Positions 805 to 21,123 of a stretch of 25,747 nucleotides of DNA are shown here, one piece after another. The stretch lies in IMG/VR virus record IMGVR_UViG_3300042556_002288, positions 1 to 25,747 of that record; one strand, given 5' to 3'. The DNA comes from a virus. The notes below the pieces were generated by a model. That model was given only the letters and a program-made list of their open reading frames with translations, searched no databases and had not been told where the DNA came from. Numbering within the stretch: position 1 is the first letter of the stretch; the number at the start of each line of letters is the position of its first letter. Position numbers and translations under genes: made by a program.

Positions 805-1152
805 TCACTTCTTTTTCATTAAGGCAAGAATTTTGTTTACGAGTTTGTCTGATGTGGTAGTCTTTCTGGCAATTATACCAAAAAATCCACCTGGTATTAA
901 ACCAGAAGCGTATTCTAACGGACAGGCAAGAATTGCTTCAAATTCATCAACATCATCATATTCTTCCGAATTCTCTTTACTCTCACGGAACAATACAATG
1001 TGATATAAATCACCTAATGAATTTCCACCAATCTTTTCACCAGGATTTGCATACTGTGAACTCATGATGTGAATTTGATCTTCTGTTTCACCTGCCAAAA
1101 AATAAAGAAAATCTAATTTTTCATCTTTCAGAGGCTTTAACATTTCTAACAT
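805..1152 (-). CDS. Conserved-looking hypothetical protein
   Basis: A 115-residue soluble protein I do not recognise. It is mixed alpha/beta in appearance, with an acidic middle (SKENSEEYDDVDEFE, about residues 58-72), a hydrophobic glycine-rich segment (LIPGGFFGIIARK, about 85-97) and a lysine-rich C-terminus. There is no signal peptide or membrane segment. The ATG at 1152 is preferred over the ATG three codons later because AAAGGATTACA gives an AGGA ribosome-binding site at good spacing just before it. The first 7 bases overlap the end of the GIY-YIG gene, so the two are probably translated together. It sits between DNA-metabolism genes, which suggests but does not show a role in nucleotide or DNA metabolism. 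Confidence 0.75.
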   Translation of the reverse strand: MLEMLKPLKDEKLDFLYFLAGETEDQIHIMSSQYANPGEKIGGNSLGDLYHIVLFRESKENSEEYDDVDEFEAILACPLEYASGLIPGGFFGIIARKTTTSDKLVNKILALMKKK

Positions 1153-1559
1153 TGTAATCCTTTTATATGTGATTTTCTAACTCGTACCATTATCCATGTA
1201 TTGTAATAGTCATCGCTTTCCATTACACCACGAACAAATTGCTCTTTTGCTTCGAGATAACCACATTCACCTTTTGATTTACATAAATGAAGTATTTCAC
1301 GGACAAATTTTTCATGTCCTAATTGTAACACATCTTTCTGTAAGATGTCACTACTTCCATAGTAAGTTTGCCAATTAGATTGGACTTTGAGTTTTTTCTT
1401 TTTACCTTTGACTTGTTTGGTTTTGGTAGAATAAAAAAATTTCTTGCCTATGTATTTTTTACCATTCGTCAGATTAGTAATCTGATACACGAACCCGTAA
1501 TTATCACCAATCAAGTCTTCCGTAAAATCTTTACCATCATATTGCCAGTTTAGTCCCAT
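1146..1559 (-). CDS. Putative GIY-YIG nuclease-like protein
   Basis: A 137-residue protein whose first half resembles the GIY-YIG nuclease fold. GFVY at 22-25 (the GIY element) is followed after a short loop by KKYIGKK at 34-40 (the YIG element). A very lysine-rich stretch follows (about 46-59), then YYGSS at 66-70 and a candidate catalytic Glu in LEAKEQ (103 or 106). Families with this fold include free-standing phage homing endonucleases (Seg type, I-TevI) and DNA-degrading nucleases such as T4 DenA. I cannot place it more precisely: no separate DNA-binding domain is visible and the C-terminus is short and basic. The start overlaps the preceding zinc-ribbon gene by 10 bases (AAGGAATGGGACTAA), with an AAGGA directly abutting the ATG, so translation is probably coupled. 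Location beside nrdB is notable because nrd genes are common homing targets. Confidence 0.7.
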   Translation of the reverse strand: MGLNWQYDGKDFTEDLIGDNYGFVYQITNLTNGKKYIGKKFFYSTKTKQVKGKKKKLKVQSNWQTYYGSSDILQKDVLQLGHEKFVREILHLCKSKGECGYLEAKEQFVRGVMESDDYYNTWIMVRVRKSHIKGLQC

Positions 1560-8470: not shown

Positions 8471-8904
8471 TAGTTACACCAACTTTGTTTTGCTTCACCA
8501 AAATATTCACGGGCAAAGCCATTTTTAATTAACATGGTGCGTAGTGATTGACCATTTAGTATGATATCACCCAAGACACGGCCACCAAATTTATCCCAGC
8601 CATACAACACAACTTGACGCTGAGTGGAAGCGGATACAGCTTTCTTTGTGAATTCTGTAGCGGCTTGTCCTCTGGCATCTTCTGATGGGCATTGGGCTCT
8701 GAATCCTTTTTCTGGAGTATCAACACCGAATATTCTAACGGCAAGTTCGGGTTTAAGTGGTGCCGGTAAAAAGGGAGCCGCTATGACCACAGTATCGCCA
8801 TCGTTTACACGGACAATCTGAGCATCATAGGTTACACCTTGCGGAGTTTTCTGTGCAAATGCCACCAAAGGTAACATTAATAAAACGGTTAATAATTTTT
8901 TCAT
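8470..8904 (-). CDS. Periplasmic thermonuclease (staphylococcal nuclease-like)
   Basis: A 144-residue protein with a cleavable signal peptide (likely cut after AFA, residue 17) and a complete SNase domain, which hydrolyses DNA and RNA with calcium. Catalytic positions are visible: D35/D37 in VNDGDTV, R57 in VRIFG, D62 and E65 in VDTPE, and R109 in DKFGGRVLG. Two further cysteines (C72 and C143) could form a disulfide after export. Length is typical of a single-domain SNase. The gene is embedded in the lysis operon, overlapping both the spanin and lipoprotein genes. Export to the periplasm is clear from the sequence; whether it degrades incoming DNA, released DNA or something else is open. Confidence 0.9.
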   Translation of the reverse strand: MKKLLTVLLMLPLVAFAQKTPQGVTYDAQIVRVNDGDTVVIAAPFLPAPLKPELAVRIFGVDTPEKGFRAQCPSEDARGQAATEFTKKAVSASTQRQVVLYGWDKFGGRVLGDIILNGQSLRTMLIKNGFAREYFGEAKQSWCN

Positions 8905-10277: not shown

Positions 10278-10760
10278 TTATTCTTGTGGTGGTTGCTTTT
10301 CGCCTTCTGGATCTAAATGTTCGGTGTCATCAGATACTAATTCGTCCAAGCCTGCATCATCAGTAACCACAGCATAACATTCATAATGGCCATCTTCGAC
10401 CATACCATAACTGAAATAAAAATAGTAATCTACTTCATTGTCTGGATTTGTTGTTACGCCATCCGTATCAACACCTTGTTTCGTTCCAAACTGGTTTATT
10501 GCAACAACTTCTTCTCCATCTAGAATATCATCAAAAATAATTCTAGGTAAAGCAATACCATATAATGCCAATAATTTTGAAGCTCTATTCCATGCAATAT
10601 AAGGATTTAGAAAATTAGGATCTAAAGCCTGATACAAATTATCGTTTATTTCATTACGTGTTTCTTCTTCAGAGAAATCAATTTTCTCTTTAGAAATGGA
10701 GATGACCGGCATATCCGGTCCATCTCCACACTCACTAACATACCTTCTAAAAGAAAACAT
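10278..10760 (-). CDS. Conserved acidic protein with capsid-targeting-like N-terminus
   Basis: A 160-residue acidic protein of unknown function. The first ten residues MFSFRRYVSE match the pattern M-x-S-F-x-x-Y-V-x-E seen at three other starts in this window and in the T4 internal-protein capsid targeting sequence; Glu10 would be the cleavage position. The N-terminal half is helical (EETRNEINDNLYQALDPNF, about 33-51), the middle is beta-rich, and the end is acidic (DDTEHLDPEGEKQPPQE). No signal or membrane segment. The start at 10760 overlaps the stop of the Ig-like gene by one base. Packaging into the head is an inference, weaker here because position 8 is Val and not Ile or Leu. Confidence 0.75.
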   Translation of the reverse strand: MFSFRRYVSECGDGPDMPVISISKEKIDFSEEETRNEINDNLYQALDPNFLNPYIAWNRASKLLALYGIALPRIIFDDILDGEEVVAINQFGTKQGVDTDGVTTNPDNEVDYYFYFSYGMVEDGHYECYAVVTDDAGLDELVSDDTEHLDPEGEKQPPQE

Positions 10761-14265: not shown

Positions 14266-14586
14266 TTAGCAGTTCCACTTGCGTAATGCTTTGTTAATTC
14301 TAGAATCTGGATCTCTTGCTGTCTTAGCGGATGTCAATCGTTTCTTCATTCCACCCATACGAGCACAGAATGATTTTCTACGATTAGCCGCTTTTGATCC
14401 TGCTTTCAGTTTTGATGGTTTAGTAGTAACAGCCATCGATAACTTAGAGCCTGGATTTTCTCTACGATAAGAAGCGATACCTTTACGATTTAAACCACCT
14501 TCTGGATCTTTACCGGCAGAACGTTGCCATGCTGGCGACTTTTCATCAAGATATTCCTCAGATATGAATTGTTTAAATTTTAGCAT
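14266..14586 (-). CDS. Small basic protein, DUF6321-like, with capsid-targeting-like N-terminus
   Basis: A 106-residue, strongly basic protein. The body (PEGGLNRKGIASYRRENPGS, then RRKSFCARMGGMKKRLTSAK and DPDSRINKALRKWNC) matches a conserved phage protein family I recall as DUF6321, function unknown; the number should be checked. The first ten residues MLKFKQFISE fit the T4 internal-protein targeting pattern, with I8-S9-E10 a good prohead protease site, followed by EEYLDE, another possible site. A small basic mature protein released after cleavage would resemble T4 internal proteins, which coat or accompany packaged DNA. The start at 14586 overlaps the upstream gene by 14 bases, so translation is probably coupled. 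Confidence 0.85.
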   Translation of the reverse strand: MLKFKQFISEEYLDEKSPAWQRSAGKDPEGGLNRKGIASYRRENPGSKLSMAVTTKPSKLKAGSKAANRRKSFCARMGGMKKRLTSAKTARDPDSRINKALRKWNC

Positions 14587-16366
14587 TTTTCTTCTTCTTT
14601 ATAGTTACACCAGATAAAGCAAATTTATCTGCTGGGGTCATTAAAGGTTCTTTGTTACTTGCGCCAGACATCGACCCAGCAAGTCCCATATCATTGGCAC
14701 CTGGATCGTCTATGGCTTCTACAAATTCTTTAAACTTTTTAAATTCTTCACGGTAGGTTACATCGCCCATTCCTGACATAGGGTATACTGTTCCCTGTTG
14801 GCGAGTATCGAATTCTGGTCCTACACCTTGGGATCGAATAGCACCAGAGGCGCTATTGACCCATCGTTTCTTTTTATTTATTTGCTCTTTGTCTTTTTGG
14901 AAGTTTGGCTCTTTGGCTTGGGGCTGGACTTCGACTTTGGGCTGGCCTTCTTCGTAGGTGCGGAAGGTGTAACCTGAGTTGCTGGCGATGTCTCCGTCAC
15001 GGACGTCATCGATTTTTCCGAGCTTTCGCTGGAATTGGATGAAGGGGGAGTTGTTGTCTTGCAAGGGTCTACGGTTTGCGTTGGCTTTACTTTTAAGAAA
15101 TCGATTAGGGCTTTTAACATTTTTTTGTTCCTTGTATAATGAATTAATATTTAATTTAGAGTTTCGAATCAACCAATCTTCGGCGGTTTCGTTAAGAACT
15201 TTGGTATCCAAGAAATCATTAGTTTTTTCATAGATTTCATGTATATCTTGCTCTTTACTATCTATATCTCCTGTATTATCAAAAGATACAAATTTCTCAA
15301 AGGTCTCTTTAAAATATTTAGTATTTTTCTGAGATTTCAACCATTTTTCTTGTCGTATCGATTCAACCATCATCCTGGACAATAAAGAGTTTCTTTCTCT
15401 ACTGGTCTCATTGGTGGTATTCACAAATACCATTATTGTTTCATATCCTAATTCTTCTAATTCTTCTTTGATATATGATATTCTGGTTGTATCATCTGCA
15501 GGACCATTAATGATTAAAGGACCACGATTTCGAATTGCTTCTTGCCTGTAATCACTTGTTTTTTCAGACAATTTTTGTTTATCAGCCAAATACTCTTGAG
15601 CCTGTATGAAATTTAGTTCAACAATCTTGGCTTCAGAAATGGCTTCACGAATGATGATATCTTTACCAGAACCAGGTCCGCCGGTAACAAAAATAGCTTT
15701 GAACATACCACGATCTGTAGTTTCATGTAGTCCCATACCTTTACGAGTATCGTGCATTAACTCTTTTGCATGAGTATCTGAAACGTGAGATGGCACACCT
15801 TTCCTAAACTCACCAAAGTTCTTGTTCTTTGCATGTTCTCTCATCTTAGTAGCGGACATACCTTCTGTGCCTTCAGCGTCTGGATCACGATGTCCAGCAG
15901 AATGTACCGTAATCTTTTTAAAGTGGTATTTTCCATGGCCAGCCTCAACACCATTATATTTGTGTAATAAATGGTGCATCTCTTTAACACGATCAGAACC
16001 AACGACCACATGAAGATGTGTTACGCCACTCTTATGTGCTTCTGCTGCATGGTGTAGAATTGTTGGTTTCTCTTTTGAAGCCGCTACGATATTAGTACCG
16101 CCAGATTCTTTTGCTTCTGTTATTGGACCAGAAACATACCGTTTTAGATGTTTAACCTTTTGTTGAGCCGTTAAAGGATTCTTTTTTGTATCTTGTGTAT
16201 GTGAAACAATGATAGAATGAGTTGCATTATTCTTCTTTGCAACTTCTTTTACTTTATCAATTAATTTTAAATGGCCTGCAGTAGGAGGACTCATTCGGCC
16301 AAAGGTAATAACATGGTGTTTTTCACCTTGTTGTTCTTCTTTGATTATGTCTAAAAATGATTTCAT
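14573..16366 (-). CDS. HxGH nucleotidyltransferase fused to P-loop kinase-like domain, capsid-targeting-like N-terminus
   Basis: I take the ATG at 16366 (597 residues); a TTG four codons upstream is less likely because the ATG gives the N-terminus MKSFLDIIKE, which fits the internal-protein targeting pattern. Residues about 18-200 form a nucleotidyltransferase domain: GRMSPPTAGH (23-32, the (H/T)xGH motif) and SATKMR (171-176, the ISSTxxR motif), as in NMN adenylyltransferases and related enzymes. Residues about 220-390 hold a P-loop domain with Walker A GGPGSGKD (229-236), where Asp replaces the usual Ser or Thr. The C-terminal 200 residues are polar and linker-like. The order resembles NadR (NMNAT then ribosylnicotinamide kinase), so NAD-precursor metabolism is plausible, but substrate is not shown. 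Confidence 0.85.
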   Translation of the reverse strand: MKSFLDIIKEEQQGEKHHVITFGRMSPPTAGHLKLIDKVKEVAKKNNATHSIIVSHTQDTKKNPLTAQQKVKHLKRYVSGPITEAKESGGTNIVAASKEKPTILHHAAEAHKSGVTHLHVVVGSDRVKEMHHLLHKYNGVEAGHGKYHFKKITVHSAGHRDPDAEGTEGMSATKMREHAKNKNFGEFRKGVPSHVSDTHAKELMHDTRKGMGLHETTDRGMFKAIFVTGGPGSGKDIIIREAISEAKIVELNFIQAQEYLADKQKLSEKTSDYRQEAIRNRGPLIINGPADDTTRISYIKEELEELGYETIMVFVNTTNETSRERNSLLSRMMVESIRQEKWLKSQKNTKYFKETFEKFVSFDNTGDIDSKEQDIHEIYEKTNDFLDTKVLNETAEDWLIRNSKLNINSLYKEQKNVKSPNRFLKSKANANRRPLQDNNSPFIQFQRKLGKIDDVRDGDIASNSGYTFRTYEEGQPKVEVQPQAKEPNFQKDKEQINKKKRWVNSASGAIRSQGVGPEFDTRQQGTVYPMSGMGDVTYREEFKKFKEFVEAIDDPGANDMGLAGSMSGASNKEPLMTPADKFALSGVTIKKKKNAKI

Positions 16367-16367
16367 C

Positions 16368-17513
16368 TTACTTTGCAAACCTAGGATTGTTTAAAATTGA
16401 GTTTGAAACTTTTACAGGAACTAGTTTAGATACCGGTCTCATCTTTCCTGCTTTGTCTTTTTGTTGCAATACAATACCTTCACCTTGGGACTTTTTGCCA
16501 TCTATACTTGTTTCCATATCTGGATGTGTTACGCCTTTTAATAAATGTTCTGTAGCTTGACCCAAGTGATGTCTAATATCTAAAGACCTTTGAAAGTGTT
16601 TAGAATTATCATCAACATGTTTTTTCAACTTATCATACTCTGCTTGTTTTCTTACTTGACCAACAGGAGTCTTTAATTTACCAACTGATTTCTTTGCTTC
16701 ATCATCTAAATGTTTTTTATAACCTTCCACGGAAGCAGTTTGACCTTTTCTTGTTGTTCTATTTAAGTATGTAGTAAAGTGTCCACCTTTCTTTACATTA
16801 ATGTGTTCTGGTGTCAAATGTTCTGTGCTATGATTCTTTAGTAACTCTTTTGCTTTTTCTAAATGTTTCTCTGTGGCTTGCCTATCTTTTTCTGAATAAG
16901 TATCTGGATCAGGTTTGTATTCGTGTTCAGGAACAAAAACATTATCACTATGTTTAAGTGCCTTTTTACTAACACCATGAGCCACACCTTTTGTAATCTC
17001 AGTATGAACTGCTAAACCAATTGGTGCTTTTGTTTTGGCTTTGTATGTGATTCTATTTGGTGTTGTGGTAGTATGACCATCAGATTTTTCTCCAGGAGAA
17101 TCTGGTGTATGCAGTAAATCTCCTTGAACATGGTGACCTTTATTGACGAATTCGTGGCCATGTTTTAATAATCTTTTGAGTGAAGCAGCATAGTCTGGTT
17201 TATGACCAAAATGCTGGTCAACTTCTTTAGGTGTTCTTGCTATGACACCTCTGGCAATTCTGTGTTTATCTGAAACACCAACACCTTCTTTATCGTGTAT
17301 GACGTGAACAGAGGCACCACCGTCAGTTTTTAATGATGCACCAACAGAGCTTTCTTGTCCCATTCTTTTTTTGTGAAATTGGTGTAGTAGGTCTATTGCA
17401 GTTTGAGTATGTCTTGGATCTTCGTGTGGCAGGTCTTTCGTATGAGTAAGATGACCCAACATCTCATCATCGATGGATGTGGCTTCCCTCAAGAACGTTA
17501 TAAATGACTGCAT
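16368..17513 (-). CDS. Ligase/nucleotidyltransferase-like protein with capsid-targeting-like N-terminus
   Basis: I choose the ATG at 17513 (381 residues) because AGAAGGAAA precedes it. A GTG eight codons upstream lacks this support. The N-terminus MQSFITFLREA fits the T4 targeting pattern, with L8-R9-E10 then Ala exactly as in T4. The body shows elements that line up with the covalent nucleotidyltransferase (DNA/RNA ligase) superfamily: KTDGGAS with candidate lysine K62 (motif I), VQGDLLH at about 129-135 (motif III position), IGLAVHTEI at 165-173, GEGIVLQQK at 344-352 (motif IV) and SKLVPVKV at 362-369 (motif V). The protein is unusually His- and Lys-rich. It resembles a phage family I recall as DUF6267. 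It is the first gene after a consensus late promoter. Ligase activity is not proven. Confidence 0.8.
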   Translation of the reverse strand: MQSFITFLREATSIDDEMLGHLTHTKDLPHEDPRHTQTAIDLLHQFHKKRMGQESSVGASLKTDGGASVHVIHDKEGVGVSDKHRIARGVIARTPKEVDQHFGHKPDYAASLKRLLKHGHEFVNKGHHVQGDLLHTPDSPGEKSDGHTTTTPNRITYKAKTKAPIGLAVHTEITKGVAHGVSKKALKHSDNVFVPEHEYKPDPDTYSEKDRQATEKHLEKAKELLKNHSTEHLTPEHINVKKGGHFTTYLNRTTRKGQTASVEGYKKHLDDEAKKSVGKLKTPVGQVRKQAEYDKLKKHVDDNSKHFQRSLDIRHHLGQATEHLLKGVTHPDMETSIDGKKSQGEGIVLQQKDKAGKMRPVSKLVPVKVSNSILNNPRFAK

Positions 17514-19090: not shown

Positions 19091-19875
19091 TCACTAAATT
19101 CCTTAAAAGCAATAAACCAATCTGAATTTGAAACTGGATGCAATTCAAATAATTCTGGTTTCATTAAGTAAGACATTAATAATAATGTTTGGTCGTCATC
19201 AATTAAATTATTTTTTAGAAGTTCATGAACACTATGATGAACCATAGCTTCCAATTTTGGCCACATCTCTCGGCCTGCAACAATACACGGTCCAGTTATA
19301 TGAACATCATTATTTGCAATAACGTCTTGGATGTATGTTCCTTCTTTCCATTCTTTGATATTAAAGAAGTGTATTTTATTCTTATCAAAAGAATACTTCC
19401 ACTTCTTAACACCATTTAATGTTTCTTCACTTCTACAATAACCAAAGTCTAACCAAGCAATCAAATCAGTTTTGATGAGGTCTAAAGACCTATTAACAAA
19501 AGATGATTTTAAAGCATTGACGAGAACGTAGTCAGCATTCCAGTATTCTGGATTTTTTACTTGCATGGGATTTATTTTACTCTGATACTCAGGACTTTTC
19601 TGAACATCTGTAATTTTTTGTCTTAACTCAATAAAGCTTTTTTGGAAATCGACTGTCAATATTTGTGTTGGTCGATCTTGTCTTAGAAACTCAATCTCTT
19701 TAACCATATCTTTAGAGGTATACACCACCATATCGTTTTCTAGTTTAGCTAGATGACTGAATCTTTCCAAATAAGTTTGAGTTGTTCTTTGTAGATAATG
19801 TGGCAATCCTTTGTCTGGTGTCCAATCACCACGACCAATATCAAAGAAGGCGGTTACAATTGTAATATCATTCAT
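19087..19875 (-). CDS. HtrL/YibB (WlaTC) family putative glycosyltransferase
   Basis: A 262-residue protein whose start DITIVTAFFDIGRGDWTPDK matches the HtrL/YibB family, found in LPS and capsule gene clusters and thought to be glycosyltransferases. Further family-like features: NADYVLVNALKSSFVN (about 113-128), WLDFGYCRS (about 141-149, possible metal or nucleotide site in place of DxD), and AGREMWP (about 200-206), followed by DDDQTLLL (about 226-233). Length is typical. It overlaps the neighbouring genes as ATGA on both sides. The protein is soluble, with no signal or membrane helix. Family call fairly firm; reaction not established. Confidence 0.8.
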   Translation of the reverse strand: MNDITIVTAFFDIGRGDWTPDKGLPHYLQRTTQTYLERFSHLAKLENDMVVYTSKDMVKEIEFLRQDRPTQILTVDFQKSFIELRQKITDVQKSPEYQSKINPMQVKNPEYWNADYVLVNALKSSFVNRSLDLIKTDLIAWLDFGYCRSEETLNGVKKWKYSFDKNKIHFFNIKEWKEGTYIQDVIANNDVHITGPCIVAGREMWPKLEAMVHHSVHELLKNNLIDDDQTLLLMSYLMKPELFELHPVSNSDWFIAFKEFSE

Positions 19876-20495
19876 TTTTTAGCAATCATAGTTAATATAT
19901 TGGGAAGATTGGAAACTGATTTACGAATTTCATCTTCATGATTACAAATATGTATAGGTGTGTATCCTGCTTTATGTGCCAATTTAATTAGACCATGAAC
20001 ATCAAAGTGGTGAAAGTGTTCATTTTCTTTTCTGTGTTTCCACGTTCTAAACCATTCAGCACCCATGTTTTCGTGCATCCATGGTAATGATATCATAATA
20101 TATTTGGTTTGTAAAGAGGCCAACAGTTCGTGTATGTTTGGTTGTGGTATATGTTCAATCGAATCAAAGAATGTTACCACATCAAAACTTTGTTTGGTAA
20201 CATCAGGTACAAATTCAACACCTTGTGGTAGTGGAAAATTTGAAATGTCATGGCCATAGCATTTAGAAACTTTTTGTTGGTGGCAATATTCTAAGAATTT
20301 GCCGTCACCATAACCAAAGTCACAGATAGAATCGAAACTAGTATATTTGTCTAATAAATCAAATCTTAACTTAGACATGGCAAGATTCATCTTAGTATAA
20401 TATTCCATATAGCGAGTATCATACTTCATAATTTCACCAGTTTGATTTTTTTGAAACCAGTGGCCTGGTTCAATCATCTCATAATTTTCAATCAT
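19872..20495 (-). CDS. SAM-dependent methyltransferase, paralogue A
   Basis: A 207-residue class I methyltransferase. SAM-binding motif I is ICDFGYGDGKFLEYC (about 57-71). The acidic residue following beta-2 is D79 in GHDISN. The post-I/motif II region is FDVVTFFDSIEHI (about 104-116). The C-terminal half carries EHFHHFDVHGLIKLA, typical of methyltransferases in O-antigen and sugar clusters. It is clearly paralogous to the gene at 20488-21123 along the whole length, and overlaps it by 8 bases. Substrate is probably a sugar or glycan given the neighbours, but protein or other small-molecule targets are not excluded. Confidence 0.85.
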   Translation of the reverse strand: MIENYEMIEPGHWFQKNQTGEIMKYDTRYMEYYTKMNLAMSKLRFDLLDKYTSFDSICDFGYGDGKFLEYCHQQKVSKCYGHDISNFPLPQGVEFVPDVTKQSFDVVTFFDSIEHIPQPNIHELLASLQTKYIMISLPWMHENMGAEWFRTWKHRKENEHFHHFDVHGLIKLAHKAGYTPIHICNHEDEIRKSVSNLPNILTMIAKK

Positions 20496-21123
20496 TCTTT
20501 TTCGCCACTATTGTCAATATGTTGGGTAAATCACTAAATGGTGTTCTTATTTTATCTTCATCATTACAAACATGAATTATTTTACAACCAGCATCAATCA
20601 GTAATTTTGTCAAACCGTTACAATCAAAATGGTGGAAATGTTCATTTTCTCTACGGTGTTTCCAATTCATGAACCATTCCTTACCACATGATTCGTGATA
20701 CCAAGGAACAGAGATAACAAAGTATTTTGCTTTTTTTGCTTTGAGTATTGGTGTCAAATCTTCAACATCCAAATGTTCCAAAGAATCAAAGAATGTCATT
20801 ACATCAACCTCAACCTCATCAGGATTGTCCACTTTTGTGATATAAGAAGGTAATTGATAATTTGATATATCATAACCATAAGCCTTAGTGCCTTCTATGT
20901 AACAATATTTCAAAAAACTTCCGTTGCCATAACCAAAATCACAGATCGATTTGACACGACCAATATTTGATTCGATTATAGAATATCTTAATTGTGACAT
21001 TTTATCCGTTGTTGGATAAAGATCATATCTCGTTTTAGAATATGTTTCACTATAGTCAGGACCAGGACCAGTTCTAATTTGAAATAGATGTCCAGGCGAT
21101 ACTACCTTATAATTTTCATACAT
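20488..21123 (-). CDS. SAM-dependent methyltransferase, paralogue B
   Basis: A 211-residue class I methyltransferase, paralogue of the gene at 19872-20495. Motif I is ICDFGYGNGSFLKYC and the post-I region is VDVMTFFDSLEHL. The shared blocks W[HK]HR[RK]ENEHFHHFD and LPNILT near the end are nearly identical between the two, while the segment after the first SAM motif diverges, suggesting different acceptors or positions. The start at 21123 overlaps the upstream glycosyltransferase by 8 bases. Tandem duplication with retained motifs implies both are active. Confidence 0.85.
   Translation of the reverse strand: MYENYKVVSPGHLFQIRTGPGPDYSETYSKTRYDLYPTTDKMSQLRYSIIESNIGRVKSICDFGYGNGSFLKYCYIEGTKAYGYDISNYQLPSYITKVDNPDEVEVDVMTFFDSLEHLDVEDLTPILKAKKAKYFVISVPWYHESCGKEWFMNWKHRRENEHFHHFDCNGLTKLLIDAGCKIIHVCNDEDKIRTPFSDLPNILTIVAKKND

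Follow-up and report, generated by a model that had tools for sequence, protein, structure and literature searches.

A NadR look-alike from T4-like aquatic phages: a variant of a virion-associated nucleotidyltransferase family, fused to a zeta-toxin/polynucleotide-kinase-type P-loop domain

Marine cyanophages share a core nucleotidyltransferase family, the T4-GC190 "cytidylyltransferases" (phrog_395 and phrog_3041), whose members are carried in virions. T4-GC190 was detected in purified S-SM1 virions (PMC3037559), and S-CREM2 virions contain the cytidylyltransferase ORF154, which the authors of that work had suggested to act as an NMNAT and to enter along with the virion (PMC10665884). These cyanophage forms have no P-loop domain and carry other tails. 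NadR also places a P-loop domain of kinase fold after a nucleotidyltransferase domain. Zeta toxin/PezT and the polynucleotide kinases of Clostridium thermocellum and T4 have the same fold as the P-loop domain described below and belong to its family, and closer homologues (27-30% identity over the domain) are encoded as separate genes by phages HTVC008M (gp129) and Melnitz (gp118), with canonical GK[T/S], NSD, D-[G/S]-T-G and R-x-R-[T/S] motifs. The protein analyzed here has the same nucleotidyltransferase domain and motifs as T4-GC190 followed by a P-loop domain; it is a NadR look-alike in layout, is not a NadR, and is a variant of the known virion-associated phage enzyme family.

The window, which is the whole 25.7-kb stretch of DNA analyzed, is a virus record for which there is no longer genome sequence. 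The fused gene (14573..16366, minus strand) encodes 597 residues comprising a capsid-targeting-like N-terminus, a nucleotidyltransferase domain, a P-loop domain, and a tail. Its first codon is an ATG at 16366, and its stop codon ends at 14573; the mechanical open reading frame begins at a TTG at 16378, but the natural start is the ATG, immediately 3' of the stop of the upstream gene. A plus-strand reading of the same coordinates was rejected, as it contains stops throughout. Genes nearby encode, among other products, a T4-like primase, the two subunits of ribonucleotide reductase, and an endolysin. Relatives of the fused protein are encoded by 247 viral contigs, 80 of which were retrieved, and many align over their full length. 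Since relatives are this numerous, GGPGSGKD is unchanged in all 69 that were aligned, and a two-domain AlphaFold model built from 66 sequences is confident (mean pLDDT 90), the fusion is well beyond chance. The initial annotation's description of a P-loop GGPGSGKD following a nucleotidyltransferase, in the order of NadR, is borne out by both sequence and model.

The nucleotidyltransferase domain (residues ~16-212; 15731..16321, minus strand) is a member of the T4-GC190 family. It matches phrog_3041 and phrog_395 and scores over the cut-offs of PF01467 (25.6 bits) and TIGR00125; the fused protein matches P-HM2 PHM2_163, which is labeled T4-GC 190. Relatives of the domain occur in 504 phage records, mostly of Synechococcus phages. 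Its motifs include GRMSPPTAGH (residues 23-32), KKNPL, GSDR, RDPDAEG, and SATKMR (residues 171-176), and 26 diverse members all share G23, R24, P27, P28, T29, G31, H32, G123, D125, R126, R160, D161, P162, D163, S171, K174, and R176. With (H/T)xGH and S-x-[ST]-x-x-R motifs on a Rossmann-like fold, it belongs to the HxGH/TxGH nucleotidyltransferase superfamily, and sequence and predicted structure together show an NMNAT/PPAT fold with intact catalytic motifs. The invariance of the catalytic motif residues makes the domain look active, as the initial annotation had held, although the first motif is TxGH and not the HxGH named there.

The identity of the acceptor is harder to read from these comparisons. 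Among the matches listed by VIA-align, the domain aligns with the PPAT 3otw (Z 14.1, rmsd 2.9, 151 residues aligned) and with the NadM 2qjt (Z 13.5, rmsd 3.1, 161 residues aligned), which amounts to a tie. The structural comparison proposed by the initial annotation thus does recover a NadM fold match, but an equally good PPAT match accompanies it, and neither fold nor sequence searches separate NMN from phosphopantetheine. Profile matches among the 26 family members are likewise spread over NadD (16), NadR (14), CoaD (13), and NadM-type (9) models, all weak and far under cut-offs; the best member matches TIGR00482 at E 9.6e-6, and the window protein scores 12-18 bits against the NadM and NadR models, whose cut-offs are 127-341. 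A profile search of the PDB with the nucleotidyltransferase alignment gave only weak PPAT and NMNAT matches, the best being PPATs at E 0.036, and the same search with the single sequence gave no useful match. The top Foldseek match, an ATP sulfurylase/APS kinase, was dismissed as two domain matches adding up by chance (TM-score <0.3, rmsd 17.7). There is a slight lean toward NMN, which may tentatively be named as the single most likely acceptor, at well under even chances. NAD is a possible product, as NadD and NadR profiles match slightly more members than CoaD does, all of them far below cut-offs.

The P-loop domain (residues ~218-412; 15131..15715, minus strand) is of the zeta-toxin/polynucleotide-kinase type and is not the ribosylnicotinamide kinase of NadR. 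Among the structural matches listed, its best is the C. thermocellum polynucleotide kinase 4gp7 (Z 13.3, rmsd 2.6, 142 residues aligned), and a profile search finds zeta toxin 1gvn at E 7.7e-7 and T4 polynucleotide kinase at ~5e-4. The zeta toxin family PF06414 is matched by 19 of 19 P-loop members (best 3.7e-15), with the window protein alone just below its cut-off (21.9 versus 22.3 bits), and AAA_33 by 18 of 19. By contrast, AAA_28 (PF13521), which we take to be the family covering the NadR kinase, is matched by only 2 of 19. A ribosylnicotinamide-kinase-type P-loop with a Walker Ser/Thr was not found in any fused copy; all read GKD on a zeta toxin/AAA_33-type domain.

Comparison with unfused homologues shows how far this domain has departed from a canonical kinase. 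In HTVC008M, gp129 lies directly upstream of the nucleotidyltransferase gene gp130; Melnitz gp118 lies ~50 kb from the Melnitz nucleotidyltransferase gene, a homologue without the first domain is also present within Atu_ph07 gp053, and stand-alone forms occur in viral contigs as well. A further stand-alone P-loop protein (L240, genome G012, 42358-42996) is encoded elsewhere in the genome of a phage with an unfused nucleotidyltransferase. Among all loci retrieved by the point of counting, Walker A (residues 229-236; 15659..15682, minus strand, in the window) reads GGPGSGKD in 82 of 82 fused copies, confirming the Asp that the initial annotation placed at the Ser/Thr position, versus GK[T/S] in 72 of 72 stand-alone copies (GGPGSGKT 58, GGPGSGKS 8, GGPGVGKT 5, GGAGSGKS 1). 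Because the fused copies form one related group, this link between GKD and fusion possibly reflects a single evolutionary event. Aligned stand-alone copies also keep N-[S/V]-D, D-[G/S/A]-T-G, and R-x-R-[T/S] or a close form. In aligned fused copies, the Asn of NSD is kept but a non-acidic residue stands two places on, D-x-T-G is mostly replaced by NGPA, the lid arginine motif R-x-R-T is gone, and ~16 residues are deleted. The aligned fused copies therefore lack all three residues expected of an active zeta-toxin/polynucleotide-kinase-type enzyme: the Walker Ser/Thr, the general-base Asp, and the lid Arg.

Asp in place of the Walker Ser/Thr is by itself no proof of inactivity, since T4 dNMP kinase (gp1), which is in other respects a different kinase and has catalytic residues of its own, reads GVKRSGKDT. 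It is the joint loss of the Walker Ser/Thr, the general-base Asp, and the other motifs that suggests an altered or dead kinase. The domain nevertheless appears to be under selection and to have a function, because it is still strongly conserved: conservation is 0.84-0.89 per 25-residue block over residues 226-325, dropping afterwards, so that its first 100 residues are conserved as strongly as the nucleotidyltransferase domain.

Directly upstream, with its stop just before the fused start, lies a DUF6267 gene (16368..17513, minus strand; PF19782, E 1.3e-26). Of 225 nucleotidyltransferase loci, 215 have DUF6267 within 2.6 kb upstream and the remaining 10 include <1.5 kb of sequence on that side, so every locus with enough sequence has it; the records of P-HM2, HTVC008M, Melnitz, and C48C1 likewise show a DUF6267-type gene upstream of the nucleotidyltransferase. 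K61-x-D63-G64, Q129-G130-D131, and E344-G345-x-V347 (380-residue numbering) do not vary among 31 members, and this conservation of KxDG, QGD, and EGxV likens the family to the covalent nucleotidyltransferases of the ligase superfamily. A structure model (pLDDT 82) best matches, among the matches listed, Naegleria RNA ligase (Z 9.7, rmsd 3.8, ~184 residues aligned), and all 50 structural matches listed are RNA, tRNA, or DNA ligases. With KxDG, an acidic motif III, and EGxV on a ligase fold, DUF6267 is predicted to be an unrecognized RNA-ligase-like protein; a literature search found no paper that names it.

Both of these proteins, and the DUF6321 protein encoded downstream (14266..14586, minus strand, overlapping the 3' end of the fused gene), begin with T4-like leaders: MKSFLDIIKEE in the fused protein (MKSFLDIIKEEQ; 16331..16366, minus strand), MQSFITFLREA in DUF6267, and MLKFKQFISEE in DUF6321. 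These resemble MKTYQEFIAEA of IPIII and MKTFKEF of IPI as given in the T4 record, and the fused protein thus appears to carry a capsid-targeting N-terminus, judged by resemblance rather than cleavage data. The leader and the virion-borne S-SM1 and S-CREM2 homologues together make packaging into the head probable. Capsid delivery, raised by the initial annotation, is accordingly a reasonable idea, though one already in print and not new. In PHROG matches, the DUF6321 module forms the C-terminal part of phage proteins that are much longer. A further small protein in the window (10760..10278, minus strand) has a capsid-targeting-like start, MFSFRRYVSE.

How these parts work together can be explained in several ways. 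We consider it probable that the fused protein is a capsid-targeted T4-GC190 "cytidylyltransferase" of T4-like aquatic phages whose P-loop domain is no longer an ordinary kinase. The MKSFLDIIKEE leader would take it into the head, from which it would be injected together with the DNA; the first domain would then nucleotidylate a small phosphorylated acceptor, most likely with AMP taken from ATP, and the P-loop domain may serve as a regulatory or scaffold module that binds nucleotide or holds a complex with DUF6267 or DNA. The initial annotation instead pointed to NadR, and in a bifunctional NAD salvage enzyme the P-loop domain would phosphorylate nicotinamide riboside, tolerating the Asp, and the first domain would make NAD, countering NADase defenses on entry. 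Domain order, the NadD, NadR, and NadM-type profile matches, and the published NMNAT idea for the virion form (PMC10665884) agree with this reading. Yet the fused protein scores only 16.5 bits against the NadR equivalog model TIGR01526 (cut-off 341.15; 18.5 bits for the first domain alone), its P-loop belongs to another subfamily rarely matched by AAA_28, the NSD aspartate and other kinase motifs are lost, and an extra tail is present. NadR is also absent from the 50 structural matches listed by VIA-align, an absence that by itself excludes nothing. Furthermore, every NadM phage surveyed also has NadV (PMC9503650), whereas a search for NAPRTase or NadV detected neither in 14 related contigs (96-176 kb), which may be incomplete (control genomes matched in 6 of 14). 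NadR membership is thus not upheld, and NadR-like salvage appears very unlikely.

It is unlikely, too, that the enzyme is PPAT-like or another small-molecule adenylyl- or cytidylyltransferase (for coenzyme A, FAD, or a sugar or alcohol phosphate) unrelated to defense. PPATs do provide the best Z-scores and the best PDB profile matches, and the CoaD model matches half of the members; the Z-scores are nonetheless tied with NadM, the NadD and NadR models reach slightly more members, and the first motif starts G-R-[MFL]-x-P rather than the G-[ST]-F of PPAT. A different role is suggested by the neighborhood, in which the DUF6267 ligase, a polynucleotide-kinase-derived end-binding P-loop, and a supporting nucleotidyltransferase (for example, one that regenerates NAD from NMN or alters the ends of RNA or DNA) would form a packaged nucleic-acid end-repair unit, with the incoming genome or cleaved tRNA as its target. 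Constant DUF6267 synteny, its ligase motifs and fold, a polynucleotide kinase at the head of the structural matches listed for the P-loop domain, and the grouping of ligase-like, P-loop, and nucleotidyltransferase genes in HTVC008M are consistent with such a unit. On the other hand, the DUF6267 alignment has no significant match to any solved ligase in a PDB sequence-profile search, Foldseek alone is weak (best E 5.8e-3), and the kinase motifs are lost from the fused P-loop, so that end repair seems rather unlikely. A bolder form, in which RNA-ligase-like DUF6267 and the nucleotidyltransferase fused to a former polynucleotide-kinase-type domain are packaged and injected as an end-processing unit for the first minutes of infection, is doubtful. 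The DUF6267 partner and the kinase comparison still extend the search beyond NAD to nucleic-acid ends, and the constant ligase-like partner and the contrast between canonical stand-alone and altered fused kinases offer concrete tests of what packaged enzymes do on entry.

The tail (residues ~414-597; 14576..15127, minus strand) has no match in phage records and contains the conserved blocks GYTFRTYEE, EPNFQKDKE, GPEFDTRQQGTVYPMSGMGDVTYRE, and EAIDDPGANDMG. The polar extension of about 200 residues described by the initial annotation is indeed present, from about residue 413 to 597, but a conserved 80-residue frame also runs through it. This overlapping gene, in another frame (14878..15120, minus strand; MLKALIDFLKVKP...SKSSPKPKSQTSKKTKSK), encodes an S/T/P/K-rich product, and its ATG is preceded by a Shine-Dalgarno-like AAGGA. 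All 41 non-redundant full-length sequences, counting the window, have a counterpart at this position, 69-109 codons long and conserved at its two ends (M[LF]K..I.FLK.KP and SKS..K...TS.KTKKK). Identity at fourfold-degenerate third positions is 0.62 in the overlap versus 0.40 and 0.48 in the flanks, and the amino acids of the main frame are least conserved in this stretch. The case for the gene rests on this conservation and not on open length, as the median p per sequence is 0.057 in shuffles that leave the main protein unchanged.

Other window genes include a tandem pair on the minus strand (20495..19872 and 21123..20488) encoding similar proteins (MIENYEMIEPGHWFQ... and MYENYKVVSPGHLFQ...) that resemble duplicated methyltransferase genes. 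Near the endolysin gene, a phrog_452 endonuclease (8904..8473, minus strand; thermonuclease-like) has a signal-peptide-like start. A GIY-YIG-like start, YGFVYQITNLTNGKKYIGKK, marks the product of 1559..1146 (minus strand) as a possible homing or repair endonuclease.
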